Origin: Comamonas sp. lk
GTDB lineage: Bacteria > Pseudomonadota > Gammaproteobacteria > Burkholderiales > Burkholderiaceae_C
Assembly (NCBI RefSeq): GCF_900564145.1
Contig: NZ_UOOB01000002.1
Location: forward strand, 62,001 to 126,000
DNA: 64,000 bases
Direction: 5' to 3'
This document shows, in pieces, positions 38,637-44,875 of the stretch. Within the stretch, counting starts at the first letter, position 1. Every line of letters starts with the position of its first letter. A program made the translations under genes and the position numbers. The notes under the pieces are model-generated. The model was not told the origin of the DNA, did not search any database, and was given only the letters and a program-made list of their open reading frames with translations.

Positions 38637-38965
38637 TGCCATCCCCCCTGAGGCGCTTTGCGCCTTCCCCCAAGGGGGACGACACCTTCGCCGCGAGGCG
38701 GCGGGGCCGCCTTAGGCTCTGGCTCGGTGTCTCCTCGCTGGGGCATGCTTTGTCGAGCTCCTGCAGGCCATGGCTTGCAGGGGCTTTTTTATGCCTGCTG
38801 TCCCTGTCCGGCTGCGCCGTGGTGGCCGTGGCGGGCACGGCCGTCAGCATCACCGCAGGTGCCGTGGGTCTGGCCGCCGATGCAGCGATTGGCACGGTCA
38901 AGATCGTGGGCAAAGGCGTGGGCAAGGCTGCAGACGCCGCGCTGGGCGACGAACCTGCCGATTGA
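38636..38965 (+). CDS. Small lipoprotein, start uncertain
   Basis: The reading frame gives up to 109 residues. A hydrophobic tract and lipobox LLSLSGC sit near residue 60, followed by a repetitive Ala/Gly/Val stretch (AVVAVAGTAVSITAGAVGLAA), like small NF038104-type lipoproteins. The first 30 or so codons derive from a GC-rich dispersed repeat, and the hairpin of the metG terminator overlaps the signal sequence. A later start such as GTG near 38729 is possible. No other start has a better ribosome site. Function is unknown. Confidence 0.55.
   Translation: MPSPLRRFAPSPKGDDTFAARRRGRLRLWLGVSSLGHALSSSCRPWLAGAFLCLLSLSGCAVVAVAGTAVSITAGAVGLAADAAIGTVKIVGKGVGKAADAALGDEPAD
38643..38671 (+). repeat. 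GC-rich dispersed repeat, copy 1
   Basis: The 29-base core from CCCCCCTGAGGCGCTTTGCG to CCTTCCCCC matches the copy at 59468-59496 at 27 positions. More related sequence (GACGAC..CCTCGC-like) follows in both. It lies right after the metG stop. Confidence 0.7.
38757..38790 (+). terminator. Rho-independent terminator after metG
   Basis: GCTCCTGCA (38757-38765) pairs with TGCAGGGGC (38776-38784, one G-T pair) and is followed by TTTTTT. It overlaps the frame of the small lipoprotein. Confidence 0.75.
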
Positions 38966-39007
38966 ATGGCGGCGAGCGCAGCCGCGTCTCGCCACAGGCC
39001 AACACGT

Positions 39008-39013
39008 TATACT
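39008..39013 (+). promoter_or_regulatory. Candidate -10 box of the corrinoid operon
   Basis: TATACT at 39008-39013 sits about 60 bases upstream of the riboswitch. I find no good -35 hexamer at the right distance, so the promoter call is weak. Confidence 0.3.
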
Positions 39014-39076
39014 GCGCCCGTTTTGAAGCGGGTTGACCGGCTGGCCATGCATGGCCGCTGCCAGCCCCTTCATCGC

Positions 39077-39554
39077 GACAACAGGTGCCCAGGCTTAGAA
39101 CGTGTTTACGATCTCTACGCAGCCGCGTTGAGGCGCAATCGGGATGAGTTCGAAGCGATGTGGTGCCGCTTGCACCGGGGTGCAAGCCAGCCGCAGCGCG
39201 AAGAAATCGCCCGATTTCGCCCCAACCCTTTGGGCCAGTGCCTTTGCGGGCGCTCTGCGGTGTTGCGAATCCTCGCAATAGCACGGCTATTGCTGTGGTA
39301 TCGCGCCTAGCATCCCATCCCGCAAAGGTACTGGCGCGGCGCCGAGGAGATCGTAAACACGTTCTTAGGCCAAGGGTTCAACGGGAACAGGGTGCAAATC
39401 CCTGGCTGCCCCCGCAACGGTCAGCAGATAAACCATTTCCACGCCCCCAGGGGCAAACCACTGATGTCCTACGTGGCCTCCCAGCGAGGTGCGCGGCGAC
39501 ATTGGGAAGGTGAAATGGCAGGCATCACGCCATCTGCGAGCCCGGATACCGGCC
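39077..39554 (+). promoter_or_regulatory. Cobalamin riboswitch, interrupted by an inserted element
   Basis: The class AdoCbl elements appear in order: GACAACAGGTGCCC at the 5 prime end, GGGAACAGGGTGCAAATCCC at about 39383, CCCCGCAACGGTCAGCAGAT, CCACTGATGTCC, GGGAAGGTG and the B12 box AGCCCGGATACCGGCC at 39539-39554. The aptamer should control the TonB receptor and BtuFCD. An apical loop in the 5 prime part (GGC-TTAG-GCC) is split by a 267-bp element. The receptor gene has no obvious ribosome site, which would fit translational control. Confidence 0.9.
39098..39364. mobile_element. 267-bp MITE-like element in the cobalamin riboswitch
   Basis: GAACGTGTTTACGATCTC (39098-39115) is repeated as a perfect 18-bp inverted repeat at 39347-39364. 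Direct TTA repeats flank it (39095-39097 and 39365-39367), like a 3-bp target duplication. It has no credible coding frame, so it must have been moved by a transposase from elsewhere. TNA-type 3-bp duplications are known for some IS5-family groups; that origin is inference. Confidence 0.85.
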
Positions 39555-39717
39555 TGTTGAGCACCGTACCCCTGGGGAAGCCCCCGGCGTGCGGTATTTG
39601 CAACGACCGTCTGCGGGGAGCAGAAGTGGCTGCTTGCCTGCCCGGCGGTCAAAAAGCGCTGCAGCAAGGCCTGGGCATGTCACCTGCAGGCAGATGGTCA
39701 GCACTTTGTTGACCTCC

Positions 39718-41877
39718 ATGAACCACCCTGACTTTGCAGCCAGAGCCCCTTTTCTCCATCCCATCGCTGCTGCGGCATTCCTGACCTGCCTGAGCGCGCT
39801 GTCCGCCACACCGGCCCTGGCCAGCGATGCCAGCACGCCCGCGTCCGAAGCCGCCATCACCCTACCCGCCGTCCATGTCACGGCATCGCCCGAAGGCGGA
39901 CTGGGCCTGTCCCTGCCGTCCACCTCCGGCAGCCGCACCGGCATCACCACGCTCGACCTTCCCGCCAGCCTGGACCAGGTGAACAGCGAAACCTGGCAGG
40001 AGCGCGGCGACTCGCGCATGGCTGACATCATCGGCCGCACCGTGGGCATGACGCCGCTGTCGGCCACCAGCTACAACAGCCTGTCCTTCAGCACGCGCGG
40101 CTTCACCGGCACCAACTCCGTGGGTATCGCGGAAGACGGCGTGCGCCTGGGCGTTGCCTCCACCACCACGCCCTACCCCGCCAACAGCTGGGGCTATGAG
40201 CGCGTGGAAGTGCTGCGTGGCCCGGCCTCCATCGTCTATGGCTCAGGTACCGTGGGGGCCACGGCCAATGTGGTGCGCAAGCAGCCCACGCGCGAGACCG
40301 TGCGTGAGGTGCTGGTCGGCGCCGGCTCGCACGGTTCGGCCAAGCTGGGACTGGGCATGGGTGGCGCAATCAGCGAGACCCTGAGCTACCGGGTGGATGC
40401 CTACGGTCACTACACCAACGGCGAGCACGATATGAGCCGCGCCAGCGGCGGCAAGCTGATGAGCACCCTGCGCTGGCAACCCACGGCAGCGCTACGCGTG
40501 GAGCTGCTGGCCGATGTCAGTGACGAAAAGCCTGCCCGCTACTTCGGCACGCCCACTATCAACGGCTCCATCGTGCCCGAGCTGCTGGGCCGCAACTTCA
40601 ACGCCGACGACAGCGACATCCGCATCAAGGACAAGCGCGTGCGCGCCCGGGCGCAGTACCAGATCAACGAGCAGTGGAGTGTGAGCAACGAGCTCTATCA
40701 CTTCAAGGCCGACCGCTACTGGCGCAACATCGAGGCCTACCGCTACAACCCGGTGGCCCAGACCATTACCCGCAGCGACTATATCGAGCTGACACACGAT
40801 CTGGAGCAGACCGGCAACCGCCTGGAGTCCAAGCTCAAGGCCGGCGCCCACCAGCTGGTCGTGGGCTGGGAAGTGAGCCGAGCCAAATTTGGCTATGCCT
40901 CGTCCGGCTTTGATTACTCCACCACCATGCCCGTAGATGCCGTTTATCACGGCTGGGACAACAGCAGCGCCATGATCCCGCGCTTTACCACGGCAGCCAC
41001 CACGCACGACTTTTATGCCGAAGACGCCTGGACGCTCAGCGAGCGCTGGCTGCTGCTGGCCGGCATACGCCGCGATCTGACGGACTTCAACAGGAGCGAC
41101 CTGATAGGAACCGGCTCGTTTGGCAAGAACCTGGGCGGCACCGCCTGGCGCCTGGGCCTGACGCACAAGCTCAATGCGCAGACCAGCCTGTACGGCCAGG
41201 TCTCCCAGGGCCATGACCCGGTCACCAATGTGCTGACGCTGAATCTCGCCAATCGCGATTACAAGCTGACCACGGCACGCCAGATCGAAGTGGGGCTGAA
41301 GCAGCAGTTCGGCCAGGGTCTGGGCGAGTGGACGGCAGCGGCCTACCGCATCGAGAAGAAAGACATCATCACCCGCGACCCGAACAACAGCCTGCTGTCG
41401 GTGCAAGGCGGCAAGCAGCATTCGCAAGGCCTGGAGCTGAGCAGCGTGCTGCGCCTGTCGCCCAACTGGCGCCTGGAAGGCAATTACGCCTTTGTCGATG
41501 CCAAATACGACCAGCTGATCGAAGCCGGCGGTGCCGACCGCTCCGGCAATCGCCCCAGCAATGTAGCGCGCAACACCGCCAATCTGTGGGCCCACTACAC
41601 CACCCACAGCAGCATCGGCCGCTGGCAGGCCTCGCTGGGCGCGCGCGCCGTGGGCAGCCGTTTTGCCGACAACGCCAATACGGCCGTCAGCGGCGGTTAC
41701 ACCGTCTGGGATGCGGCTTTGAGCTGGCGCCCCCAGCCCGGCAGCACCTACCGCCTGACGGTGCGCAATCTGGGCGACAAGCTCTATACCTACTCGGCAG
41801 TGTCGAACGCCAGGGCCTCCCAGGCCTATCCGGGCGAGGGACGCCGTCTTGATCTGACGGCCGAATTCACGTTCTGA
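39718..41877 (+). CDS. btuB: TonB-dependent receptor, probable corrinoid transporter
   Basis: The 719-residue outer membrane receptor has a signal peptide (FLTCLSALSATPALAS), a TonB-box-like segment (LPAVHVTAS), a plug domain with TRGFTGTNS and ERVEVLRGPASIVYGSGT, and a 22-strand barrel ending in the phenylalanine of LTAEFTF. Sequence alone resembles siderophore receptors, but it lies directly downstream of a cobalamin riboswitch and upstream of btuF/C/D-type genes, so corrinoid uptake is the likely role. The ATG at 39718 begins the signal peptide. Confidence 0.85.
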   Translation: MNHPDFAARAPFLHPIAAAAFLTCLSALSATPALASDASTPASEAAITLPAVHVTASPEGGLGLSLPSTSGSRTGITTLDLPASLDQVNSETWQERGDSRMADIIGRTVGMTPLSATSYNSLSFSTRGFTGTNSVGIAEDGVRLGVASTTTPYPANSWGYERVEVLRGPASIVYGSGTVGATANVVRKQPTRETVREVLVGAGSHGSAKLGLGMGGAISETLSYRVDAYGHYTNGEHDMSRASGGKLMSTLRWQPTAALRVELLADVSDEKPARYFGTPTINGSIVPELLGRNFNADDSDIRIKDKRVRARAQYQINEQWSVSNELYHFKADRYWRNIEAYRYNPVAQTITRSDYIELTHDLEQTGNRLESKLKAGAHQLVVGWEVSRAKFGYASSGFDYSTTMPVDAVYHGWDNSSAMIPRFTTAATTHDFYAEDAWTLSERWLLLAGIRRDLTDFNRSDLIGTGSFGKNLGGTAWRLGLTHKLNAQTSLYGQVSQGHDPVTNVLTLNLANRDYKLTTARQIEVGLKQQFGQGLGEWTAAAYRIEKKDIITRDPNNSLLSVQGGKQHSQGLELSSVLRLSPNWRLEGNYAFVDAKYDQLIEAGGADRSGNRPSNVARNTANLWAHYTTHSSIGRWQASLGARAVGSRFADNANTAVSGGYTVWDAALSWRPQPGSTYRLTVRNLGDKLYTYSAVSNARASQAYPGEGRRLDLTAEFTF

Positions 41878-41958
41878 ACGCAACATCAAAAGCCATAGCG
41901 AGCAGCGCATGAAATTCCTCGACTTCATGCATCAAACCCATTGAAAACGAGAGAACAC

Positions 41959-43014
41959 ATGCGCTGTCAGCTTCCATTTTTGAAGAAGGTATTTCCCTCT
42001 CGCCTGACCCTGGCCACGGGCTTGGCCCTGGCCTGCGCTTTGCTTGCGGCCTGCTCGCAGCGGCAAGAGACGCCGCCGGACCAGGCGGCCGCCAGCGTGG
42101 CCCCGGTCACGGTGCCGATCTGCGGCCAGCCGGTGAGCTATGACCGCGTGCCGCAGCGCGCGGTCACCCACGGCATCAACATCACCGAGATGTTTCTGGC
42201 TCTCGGGCTGGCCGACCGTCTGGTGGGCTATGGCGGCCTGCGCGACATCCAGCGCCTGCCGCCGGCCATGCAGGCACAGCTGGCCCAGGTGCCCGATCTG
42301 TCCAACCAGAACATGAATCTGGAAACCCTGCTGAATGCCCAGCCGGACTTTGTCTTCAGCGGCTGGTCCTATGGCTTTCGCGATGGCCAGATCACTCCGC
42401 AGCAGTTGCAGGAGCTGGGCATTGCCAGCTATGTGCTGACCGAGTCCTGCATACGCAAGGTCGCGCGTGAGCGCGTATCGCTGCAAGACACTTTCGACGA
42501 CCTGCTCCATCTGGGCCGCATTTTCCGCATCGACGCCCAGGCGCAAGCCCTGGTGAACGGCCAGCGCGCCGAGCTGGAGCGCATCGCCCAGGCCTTGCAG
42601 GGCGCGGCCAGACAGCCCTCGGTTTTTCTCTACGACAGCGGCACCGACATCCCGGTCACCGCAGGCCGCTATGCCATGCCCCACGCCATGATCGAGGCCG
42701 CCGGCGGCCGCAACATCTTTGCGGACCTGCCCAGCAGCTGGACGCGGGGCAACTGGGAGGACGTGATCGAGCGCAATCCGGACTGGATCGTCATCGTGGA
42801 CAACGACAGACCCACACCCGATGGCAAAAAGCAGTTTTTGCTGAACAAGCCCGAGCTGGCCCACCTCACCGCCATACGCGAGCGCAACTTCGTGCTGCTG
42901 GACTTTGCCGCCGCCACGCCCGGCCCGCGCAATGTGGCCGGCGTGCGCACGCTGGCCCACAGTCTGCACCCCGAACGGGTGGCGGCTCCCGAGCCCGATA
43001 CAAGCCTGAAATGA
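41959..43014 (+). CDS. btuF: Periplasmic corrinoid-binding lipoprotein, BtuF-like
   Basis: The 351-residue protein has a lipoprotein signal with lipobox LLAAC (about residue 32) and the class III periplasmic-binding fold of FecB/BtuF proteins: two lobes joined by a long helix, with PQRAVTHGINITEMFLALGL and FLYDSGTDIPVTAGRYAMP. It would hand corrinoid from the outer membrane receptor to the BtuCD permease. The ATG at 41959 has a GAGA site; an upstream TTG is less likely. Its end overlaps the permease start by four bases (ATGA). Confidence 0.87.
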   Translation: MRCQLPFLKKVFPSRLTLATGLALACALLAACSQRQETPPDQAAASVAPVTVPICGQPVSYDRVPQRAVTHGINITEMFLALGLADRLVGYGGLRDIQRLPPAMQAQLAQVPDLSNQNMNLETLLNAQPDFVFSGWSYGFRDGQITPQQLQELGIASYVLTESCIRKVARERVSLQDTFDDLLHLGRIFRIDAQAQALVNGQRAELERIAQALQGAARQPSVFLYDSGTDIPVTAGRYAMPHAMIEAAGGRNIFADLPSSWTRGNWEDVIERNPDWIVIVDNDRPTPDGKKQFLLNKPELAHLTAIRERNFVLLDFAAATPGPRNVAGVRTLAHSLHPERVAAPEPDTSLK

Positions 43015-44102
43015 GCCACTATTCCTCCCACCATCTGGCATTTCAGCTGCAGCGCCGCCACTTGGCCTGGTGGCTGGCCGCCTTGCTGCTGCTGCTGGCC
43101 CTGAGCCTGACGCTGGCCATCACGCTGGGCCCGGTGCGCATCGCGCCGCTGCACGCCTGGCAGATCACGGCCCACGAAATCGGCCTGCAACTGGGGCTGG
43201 ACATGGCGCCCGGCACCTGGAGCCATTCCCAGCACCAGATCGTCTGGCGCATCCGCATGCCGCGCGTGCTGCTGGCGGCCCTGGCCGGGGCCGGCCTGGC
43301 GCTGGTGGGCGTGGCCATGCAGGCCATGGTGCGCAACCCCTTGGCCGACCCTTATCTGCTGGGCGTGTCCTCCGGTGCCACGGTAGGCGCGGTGACGGTG
43401 CTGGCCTCCGGCGCGCTGGCCTTCGCGGGCGAGCTGGCCCTGCCCATGGGCGCCTTCAGCGGCGCCCTGGCCGCCTGCGTAGCGGTATATGTGCTGGCCC
43501 ATGCCGGAGGGCGTTTGCTGGCCTCGCGGCTGATTCTGGGCGGTGTGGCCATTGCCTACTGCCTGGGCGGCGTGACCAGCCTCATGGTGCTGACCTCCGA
43601 CCAGCGCGAGCTGGCCAACTCGGTGCTGGCCTGGACGCTGGGCAGCCTGGCCGGCACCCGCTGGGATGAACTGGGCCTGCCTGCCGCCCTGCTGCTGCTG
43701 GGCATGGGCTTGCTGTTGGTACAGGCCCGTGCGCTCAATGCCTTGCTCGCCGGCGAGGAAACCTCGGCCACGTTGGGTGTGGACACCACGCGCATACGGC
43801 GCTGGCTGTTCGTGCTGGTCTCGCTGATCACCGGCGTGCTGGTGGCGCTCACCGGGCCCATAGGTTTTGTCGGCCTGATGGTGCCCCATATCACGCGCAT
43901 GCTGGTGGGCGCGGAGCACCGGCGCGTGCTGCCGGTCTCGGCCCTGGTGGGCGCGATTTTCCTGGTCTGGGTCGATGTGCTGTCGCGCATCAGCTTTGCA
44001 CCGGCGGAAGTGCCCGTGGGCGTCATCACCTCCCTGGTCGGCGGCCCCTTCTTCATCTGGATGCTGTGCCGCAAAAGCAGCATGCAAAGGCTGCTGCCAT
44101 GA
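43011..44102 (+). CDS. btuC: ABC transporter permease, BtuC/FecCD family
   Basis: This 363-residue permease has about ten membrane helices with the FecCD signatures RMPRVLLAALAGAGLALVG, QAMVRNPLADPYLLGVSSGA and GFVGLMVPHITRMLVG. It forms the membrane channel of the corrinoid importer. Both ends overlap neighbouring genes by four bases (ATGA), so the three ABC genes are one transcriptional and translational unit. An extra segment (QLGLDMAPGTWSHSQHQ) lies in the first periplasmic loop. Its specificity for B12 is inferred from the riboswitch. Confidence 0.89.
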   Translation: MSHYSSHHLAFQLQRRHLAWWLAALLLLLALSLTLAITLGPVRIAPLHAWQITAHEIGLQLGLDMAPGTWSHSQHQIVWRIRMPRVLLAALAGAGLALVGVAMQAMVRNPLADPYLLGVSSGATVGAVTVLASGALAFAGELALPMGAFSGALAACVAVYVLAHAGGRLLASRLILGGVAIAYCLGGVTSLMVLTSDQRELANSVLAWTLGSLAGTRWDELGLPAALLLLGMGLLLVQARALNALLAGEETSATLGVDTTRIRRWLFVLVSLITGVLVALTGPIGFVGLMVPHITRMLVGAEHRRVLPVSALVGAIFLVWVDVLSRISFAPAEVPVGVITSLVGGPFFIWMLCRKSSMQRLLP

Positions 44103-44875
44103 GCACACTGCACGCGAAAAATCTTCACTGGCAGGTTGCTGCCGCCCATATCGTGCAGGACATCAGCCTGCATGTGGCGCAGGGCGAGCTGGTGGGTCTG
44201 TTAGGCCCCAATGGCAGCGGAAAATCCACGCTGCTGCGCATGATCTACCGCACGCTGCGGCCCCACAGCGGCTGCGTGCTGCTGGACGAGCACAACGTCT
44301 GGCGCGGCAGTGCGCGCGACAACGCCAAAGTCATGGCCGTGCTGGCCCAGGAAAGCAGCAGCGAGTTCGACCTCAGCGTGCGCGACATGGTGCTGATGGG
44401 GCGCACGCCGCACCAGTCGCCGTTTGCACGCGATAGCGACGAAGACTTCCGCATCGTGACCCAGGCGCTGGAGCGCATGCAGGCCCATACGCTGTCCGAG
44501 CGCATGTTCAGCACCCTGTCCGGCGGCGAGAAGCAGCGCGTGCTCATGGCCCGCGCCCTGGCCCAGCAAGCGCCGTTTCTGGTGCTGGACGAGCCCACCA
44601 ACCACCTGGATGTGCGCCACCAGTTCGAGCTGATGAACCTGATCCGCGGTCTGGGCCTGACCACCTTGGCCGCCCTGCACGAGCTGCCGCTGGCCGCCCA
44701 TTATTGCGACCGGCTGTATCTGCTGAAAAACGGACGACTGGCGGCCCAGGGCACGCCCGCCGAAGTGCTGACCGCCGACACCATCGCCCAGGTCTACGGC
44801 GTGCGCGCCCTGGTGCATACCAACCCGCGCACCGGCAAGCCGCTGATCGAATACCTGCCCGACGAGCTTCTCTGA
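44099..44875 (+). CDS. btuD: ABC transporter ATP-binding protein, BtuD/FecE family
   Basis: The 258-residue ATPase carries Walker A GPNGSGKS (about 37-44), the ABC signature LSGGEKQRVLMARAL, Walker B LVLDEPTNHLD, and the H-loop region ALHELPLAAHYC. It energises corrinoid import with the permease encoded just upstream. The ATG overlaps the previous stop (ATGA). The family also includes iron-siderophore importers; the riboswitch supports a B12 role. It is the last gene of the operon. Confidence 0.9.
   Translation: MSTLHAKNLHWQVAAAHIVQDISLHVAQGELVGLLGPNGSGKSTLLRMIYRTLRPHSGCVLLDEHNVWRGSARDNAKVMAVLAQESSSEFDLSVRDMVLMGRTPHQSPFARDSDEDFRIVTQALERMQAHTLSERMFSTLSGGEKQRVLMARALAQQAPFLVLDEPTNHLDVRHQFELMNLIRGLGLTTLAALHELPLAAHYCDRLYLLKNGRLAAQGTPAEVLTADTIAQVYGVRALVHTNPRTGKPLIEYLPDELL

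Follow-up and report, generated by a model that had tools for sequence, protein, structure and literature searches.

A cobalamin riboswitch of Comamonas sp. lk carries a 267-bp MITE that almost certainly entered it by insertion into the loop of its P2 arm, judging from the arrangement of repeats, pairing strands and relatives. The riboswitch lies in a window of 64,000 nucleotides (the whole stretch of DNA that was analysed) and precedes a TonB-dependent receptor gene and the genes of a B12-type ABC transporter. Our overall reading, to which we assign a probability of roughly 0.7, is that the MITE was moved into the P2 loop by an IS5-family transposase and is transcribed through, and that its RNA folds on itself and leaves the binding core able to form. 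Part of the element is a covarying hairpin, not mentioned in the earlier note on this DNA, that extends well beyond Comamonas. The features are as follows (positions are those of the window).

39009–39014, + strand: TATACT, probable −10 box; P1 is preceded by TATACT or TATAAT in 15 of the 16 relatives
39079–39086, + strand: 5' strand of P1; pairs possible with 39552–39559; among relatives, both sides are changed at 2 of the 8 pairs
39088–39094, + strand: 5' strand of P2; 3 + 3 pairs with 39369–39376 around an internal loop
39095–39097, + strand: left target duplication, TTA (from the sequence)
39098–39364, no strand assigned: MITE, 267 bp
39098–39115, + strand: left terminal inverted repeat, 18 bp
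39245–39327, + strand: covarying hairpin core inside the element; it scores 94.6 bits with model R1, to whose construction it contributed
39347–39364, − strand: right terminal inverted repeat, 18 bp (from the sequence)
39365–39367, + strand: right target duplication, TTA (from the sequence)
39369–39376, + strand: 3' strand of P2; pairs with 39088–39094
39377–39559, + strand: remainder of the cobalamin aptamer (RF00174), with the 3' strand of P1 at 39552–39559
39718–41877, + strand: TonB-dependent receptor (PF00593, PF07715)
41941–43014, + strand: periplasmic binding protein (PF01497), resembling BtuF in position and family
43011–44102, + strand: FecCD permease (PF01032), resembling BtuC in position and family
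44102–44875, + strand: ABC ATPase (PF00005), resembling BtuD in position and family

The element and its place in the riboswitch

An earlier note on this DNA had described an element of 267 bp with perfect 18-bp terminal inverted repeats and TTA on both sides, and both the sequence and a repeat finder bear this out: the repeats are complementary at 18 of 18 positions. The element contains no transposase gene, for which it is too short, and the one overlapping open reading frame scanned (38966–39310) matched 0 Pfam families. In addition to the terminal repeats and target duplication, it has dispersed copies, as expected of a MITE. The search for further copies of the repeats that the earlier note had proposed returned six further near-full copies from this genome, making seven (84–100% identical) with the riboswitch copy, as well as two ends-only copies; the nearest of the others is 96% identical to the riboswitch copy. 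Across Comamonas, 41 of 53 genomes, including this one, match the element, in a survey that scored 14 candidates per genome and thus gives counts of genomes, not totals of copies. Identical 3-bp duplications flank 71 of the 111 distinct sites of the family, and TNA is duplicated at all 71; at these sites, to which the target analysis was confined, the preferred core is CTNAG, with C at −2 in 65% and G at +2 in 69%. One genome of 4.6 Mb (G008) contains 289 end sequences with at most two mismatches, perhaps a burst of the element's family to about 145 copies.

Another copy in the genome of Comamonas sp. lk (C1; L006, positions 1501–1772) has an SAH riboswitch (1805–1913) on its 3' side, some 30 bases away. 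This riboswitch and a tRNA standing apart from the copy in its locus (L175) were the two matches at Rfam gathering thresholds among 100 loci with other copies (L111–L190, L002–L009 and L011–L022, with L010 and L023–L039 left out), a scan in which an RNA split by an insertion could escape detection.

Even with the insert in place, RF00174 matches 39342–39571 at 78.5 bits, far over its gathering score of 31.5. This match places the 5' strand of P1 on the right terminal repeat of the element, where the fitted helix includes non-standard pairs. A better 5' strand lies upstream of the element, at 39079–39086, and its position there indicates that the element occupies the P2 loop, between 39094 and 39369. 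When the flanks are joined across the insert, the aptamer aligns with relatives that match RF00174, most of those listed scoring 85–99 bits, and both P1 and P3 pair.

We compared this riboswitch with its 16 closest counterparts in other Comamonas genomes, picked by similarity to the 3' part of the aptamer. None of the 16 has the element at the corresponding place, and in the 5 on named contigs a receptor 80–87% identical to that of Comamonas sp. lk begins about 100–180 bases downstream of the riboswitch. The closest of these riboswitches (L056, from genome G036) has a different 57-nt hairpin, inserted elsewhere in the corresponding structure. The earlier note had held that the insertion would be called into question if relatives shared the sequence and no other copies existed; instead, all 16 sites are empty and other copies are present. 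That the element might be a native extension of P2 would fit the variable arm lengths of this riboswitch family, of which the 57-nt hairpin at another place could be an instance, but its absence from every one of the closest relatives, the six further near-full copies that this genome carries and the target duplication leave that idea next to no probability. The earlier note's claim of an insertion into a loop, not a stem, agrees with the empty relatives, the further copies, the P2-loop position and the capacity of the insert to pair with itself, and the perfect ends suggest that the event was recent. A contig scan for such ends joined to the aptamer, covering only insertions just 5' of ACGGGAAC, gave 0 matches; the scanned contigs possibly do not include this genome or very near ones.

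The TATACT upstream of P1, conserved in the relatives, would place the start of transcription upstream and the insert inside the leader RNA. Alternatively, the element could bring its own promoter, in which case the operon would be transcribed from within it and the aptamer truncated, as the RF00174 fit from 39342 onward, with the 5' strand of P1 on the right terminal repeat, might suggest. Against this, that fitted P1 has non-standard pairs, the −10 box stands upstream in 15 of 16 relatives, and a promoter scan of 38900–39760 returned no sigma-70-like site, although the same scan also missed the conserved upstream TATACT. We regard an internal promoter as very improbable, and favor a transcript that starts upstream of P1 and would read through the element.

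Predicted effect on the aptamer

The mechanism that we propose for this leader begins with the entry of a non-autonomous MITE at a CTTAG in the P2 apical loop and the duplication of TTA, a step shown by the copies, the ends, the duplication and the empty sites. The RNA of the insert is predicted to fold from its 18-bp ends inward and to stack on P2. Transcription would produce the P1 and P2 5' strands ahead of the insert and everything else after it, so that the binding core could form as it did before.

Folding calculations, made without pseudoknot, tertiary contacts or ligand, agree with this picture. The earlier note had supposed that the ends of the insert would pair and lengthen the hairpin, and in the predicted fold the terminal repeats pair with a probability of at least 0.99, the closing helix of the insert is 19 bp long, and the hairpin extends P2. 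The insert alone is more stable than shuffled versions of itself (z = −10.9). The comparison of folds with and without the insert, also proposed in the earlier note, found all 75 of 75 predicted pairs of the uninterrupted fold retained, with one extra pair beside the insert. The inner P2 pairs have a probability of 1.0 with the insert and 0.36 without it. Whether or not the insert is present, P1 and the outer pairs of P2 are improbable (at most 0.08) and fall outside the lowest-energy structure, and forcing P1 and P2 to form costs 2.4 kcal/mol in both cases. Because the insert folds on itself, its presence was probably tolerated.

As in other RF00174 riboswitches, P1, P2 and P3 covary among the relatives; the difference here is the 267-nt mobile insert in the P2 loop. 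Over 16 sequences (including the joined flanks of Comamonas sp. lk), 98.0% of the cells in these helices are paired and 25 cells are changed on both sides, and 0 of 500 shuffles reach either the paired fraction or the number of both-side changes. Neither the number of covarying pairs (5, against 3.7 in shuffles; 87 of 500) nor the number of pair types (273 of 500) rises above the shuffles. In the row of Comamonas sp. lk, 2 of 6 P2 pairs are broken, which we attribute to a shift of its own P2.

The earlier note had also stated that all the conserved blocks are preserved, and this holds for most but not all positions: of 120 columns invariant in 15 relatives, 115 are unchanged, while five differ (four substitutions, one of them a C for A at 39422, and one gap). 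This is the largest number of such departures among the 16 rows, and the aptamer is the most divergent of the 16, its nearest counterpart being 79.7% identical. These departures raise the question of whether the insertion harms or alters regulation, with the operon mis-expressed and the aptamer now drifting, either because RNase III cuts the long hairpin or because the closure of P1 is delayed. The 19-bp closing helix, the five departures and the two broken P2 pairs in the alignment are consistent with such damage, as is the report that RNase III binds the Correia elements of Neisseria and either cleaves or protects them (PMC2649163). Those elements are, by the same source, MITE-like hairpins that influence adjacent genes, a likeness of description. 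On the other hand, P1 and P3 can pair fully, the stretch downstream of the aptamer is still similar to that of relatives, and the next row, which is likewise isolated, has four departures, only one fewer. We therefore consider harm to regulation a somewhat unlikely outcome, though one to be taken seriously, and prefer the reading in which the insert is tolerated: by the predicted folds, the structure of the aptamer is probably preserved, function with the insert in place is plausible, and the odds lean slightly toward retention of B12 regulation.

The nearest precedent found for a MITE in an aptamer comes from the trp operon of the pneumococcus, where a BOX element separates a pair of T-box riboswitches (PMC3049150). 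In that case too a small co-transcribed repeat lies in a riboswitch leader, and the riboswitches are said to appear functional still; there, however, the repeat separates two riboswitches, while the Comamonas element lies in a loop within one aptamer. A review calls the formation of riboswitches by MITEs conceivable (PMC10969869). In searches of open-licence papers, none of the titles and abstract openings listed describes a MITE inside an aptamer or the hairpin core treated below.

The presumed helper, target sites and a second riboswitch

We take the element to be of the IS5-derived kind of MITE, and it was probably moved by an IS5-family transposase. Two insertion sequences bear on this assignment. 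The first is an 848-bp sequence from G008. One of its ends agrees with the left end of the element at 17 of 18 bases, while the other has four mismatches; the flanking triplets of this insertion sequence differ. The second, of 842 bp (in G036), is 82.5% identical to the first and has ends with four to five mismatches relative to those of the element; near-identical transposase matches number 13, and at the 7 of these loci that were inspected the ends were confirmed every time. Its second open reading frame (L304) matches both NF033580 (151 bits, cut-off 110) and PF01609, identifying an IS5-type DDE transposase, whereas the first matches PF13340 and reaches only 95.5 bits with NF033580, below the cut-off. 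In the genome of Comamonas sp. lk, seven PF01609 matches in six loci revealed no pair of such ends, so the element may have no helper there. The TNA duplication, the short length and the one end nearly identical to that of an IS5-family insertion sequence are shared with IS5-derived MITEs; the element differs in that its interior is unrelated to the 848-bp insertion sequence beyond the ends and holds a covarying hairpin common to elements with other ends.

A second riboswitch contains DNA of the family. Among 140 riboswitch loci, a partly overlapping selection (L040–L099 and L191–L270), two contain such DNA at E ≤ 1e-5: that of Comamonas sp. lk and one from genome G030. In the latter (L253, positions 558–611), a 54-bp ends-only copy occupies the distal P3 arm of another cobalamin riboswitch, which gives a full-length RF00174 match at 66.5 bits, and the sequence downstream reads like a BtuB-type receptor. 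The copy is missing from four close counterparts, and its flanking triplets mismatch, so no duplication is left. By folding, all 77 of 77 pairs of the copy-free structure are retained with the copy present.

Two such cases might suggest a preference of the element for targets that are palindromes or hairpins, in which case insertion into RNA loops could be predicted. The CTNAG core of the sites is in keeping with this, as is the placement of TNA in a predicted hairpin loop at 44 of 71 sites, compared with 816 of 1500 sampled TNA and 43 of 98 CTNAG sites in the window. Beyond the core, however, pairs at offsets 3–10 number 2.25, versus 2.17 with the arms shuffled (p = 0.29), and hairpins of −12 kcal/mol or lower occur at 9 of 71 sites where 5.8 and 5.2 were expected from two backgrounds, a slight excess. 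We judge such a preference quite unlikely and, with no significant complementarity beyond CTNAG, unsupported. With no significant palindrome beyond that core and strong hairpins near expectation, the two riboswitch cases are no proof of targeting; by a rough estimate, about one riboswitch insertion would be expected by chance.

A covarying hairpin core inside the element

In a wider sample, 47 of 200 genomes of the bacterial family match the element, many only across an internal 76–80 bases. At 20 such places that were fetched, this internal part lies inside elements with other terminal repeats. It corresponds to a hairpin core of 82 nt. An alignment of 29 cores contains 24 pairs, 18 of which are changed on both sides, with 76 such cells versus 20.9 in shuffled data. 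At E ≤ 1e-4 and with Comamonas sp. lk counted, model R1 finds the core in 98 of 250 genomes and 56 of 120 genera sampled from the order, and in 57 of 398 genomes and 37 of 212 genera sampled from the phylum. Its carriers include plasmids of Cupriavidus basilensis, Cupriavidus sp. P-10 and the alphaproteobacterium Martelella mediterranea. A search of phages returned no copy of the core. Among 4227 Rfam models, 20 sources of the core gave only overlaps far below threshold (e.g., 26.1 bits where 140 are needed).

At most loci the core lies between inverted repeats. From 73 core loci (within L331–L408), of which four lay too near an end, 69 were analysed; 55 have flanking inverted repeats (score ≥ 13), versus 2 of 98 control stretches, and 14 have none. 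No flanking repeats were recognised around the core of Mitsuaria sp. 7. The lengths of the core-bearing elements cluster near 160 and 265–275 bp, and their ends fall into 16 crude clusters, at least one of which (L347) is a boundary artefact, leaving about 15 kinds of ends. Of 27 loci picked for the long form, 20 have a second core on the opposite strand, 23–29 bases away; no second core was detected in the element of Comamonas sp. lk. R1 was also applied to the transposase loci, 28 out of 30 once L309 and L317 were set aside. It located the core at L326 and L329, within MITEs that adjoin the insertion sequence, and further matches were weak (E 0.12–0.19). Many of the ends are presumably IS5-type, by their look, and this resemblance allows for both the exchange of ends and their fast divergence together with a helper.

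We asked whether the pairing of the core is kept in DNA or in RNA. In 90 cores aligned to R1, 525 cells are changed on both sides versus 141 in shuffled data, and 21 of 24 pairs include both-side changes versus 18.0, figures from an alignment that is fitted to R1 and includes most of the rows from which R1 was built. Departures from pairing are divided almost equally between G-U and A-C: 51:49 in this model-fitted alignment, where one pair (28–96) supplies 21 of the 51 G-U, and 9:12 in a sequence-only alignment from which its own structure was predicted; pairs with a G-U consensus are excluded from these counts. The corresponding ratio in the cobalamin riboswitch alignment is 17:3 (Fisher p = 0.006 and 0.009 for the two comparisons, a guide only, as the cells are not independent). 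Near-equal G-U and A-C suggest that complementarity is kept in DNA, or in both strands, and not in one RNA strand, hinting at selection on the DNA structure of the core. Correction of quasi-palindromes during replication could yield covariation without selection; conserved unpaired bases (a T at column 21 and C and T at columns 107–108 of the model-fitted alignment) argue against a simple upkeep of palindromes.

We tentatively place the insert in an ancient group of MITEs, spread across the Pseudomonadota, that would share a single conserved hairpin (or an inverted pair of them) and would have had their ends replaced repeatedly to suit different transposases. The hairpin would be maintained as a DNA fold read by a protein, as a single strand or a cruciform, and its self-folding may be what lets copies sit in the arms of riboswitches and other structured RNAs without breaking them. 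For the riboswitch, the locus is a natural experiment on the tolerance of an aptamer: one arm has taken in 267 nt of mobile sequence, the uninterrupted relatives serve as controls, and the G030 riboswitch adds an independent second case. The covarying core, a widespread hairpin without an Rfam match that is common to small elements with different ends, raises the larger question, for which the equal counts of G-U and A-C offer a test of DNA-level versus RNA-level selection.
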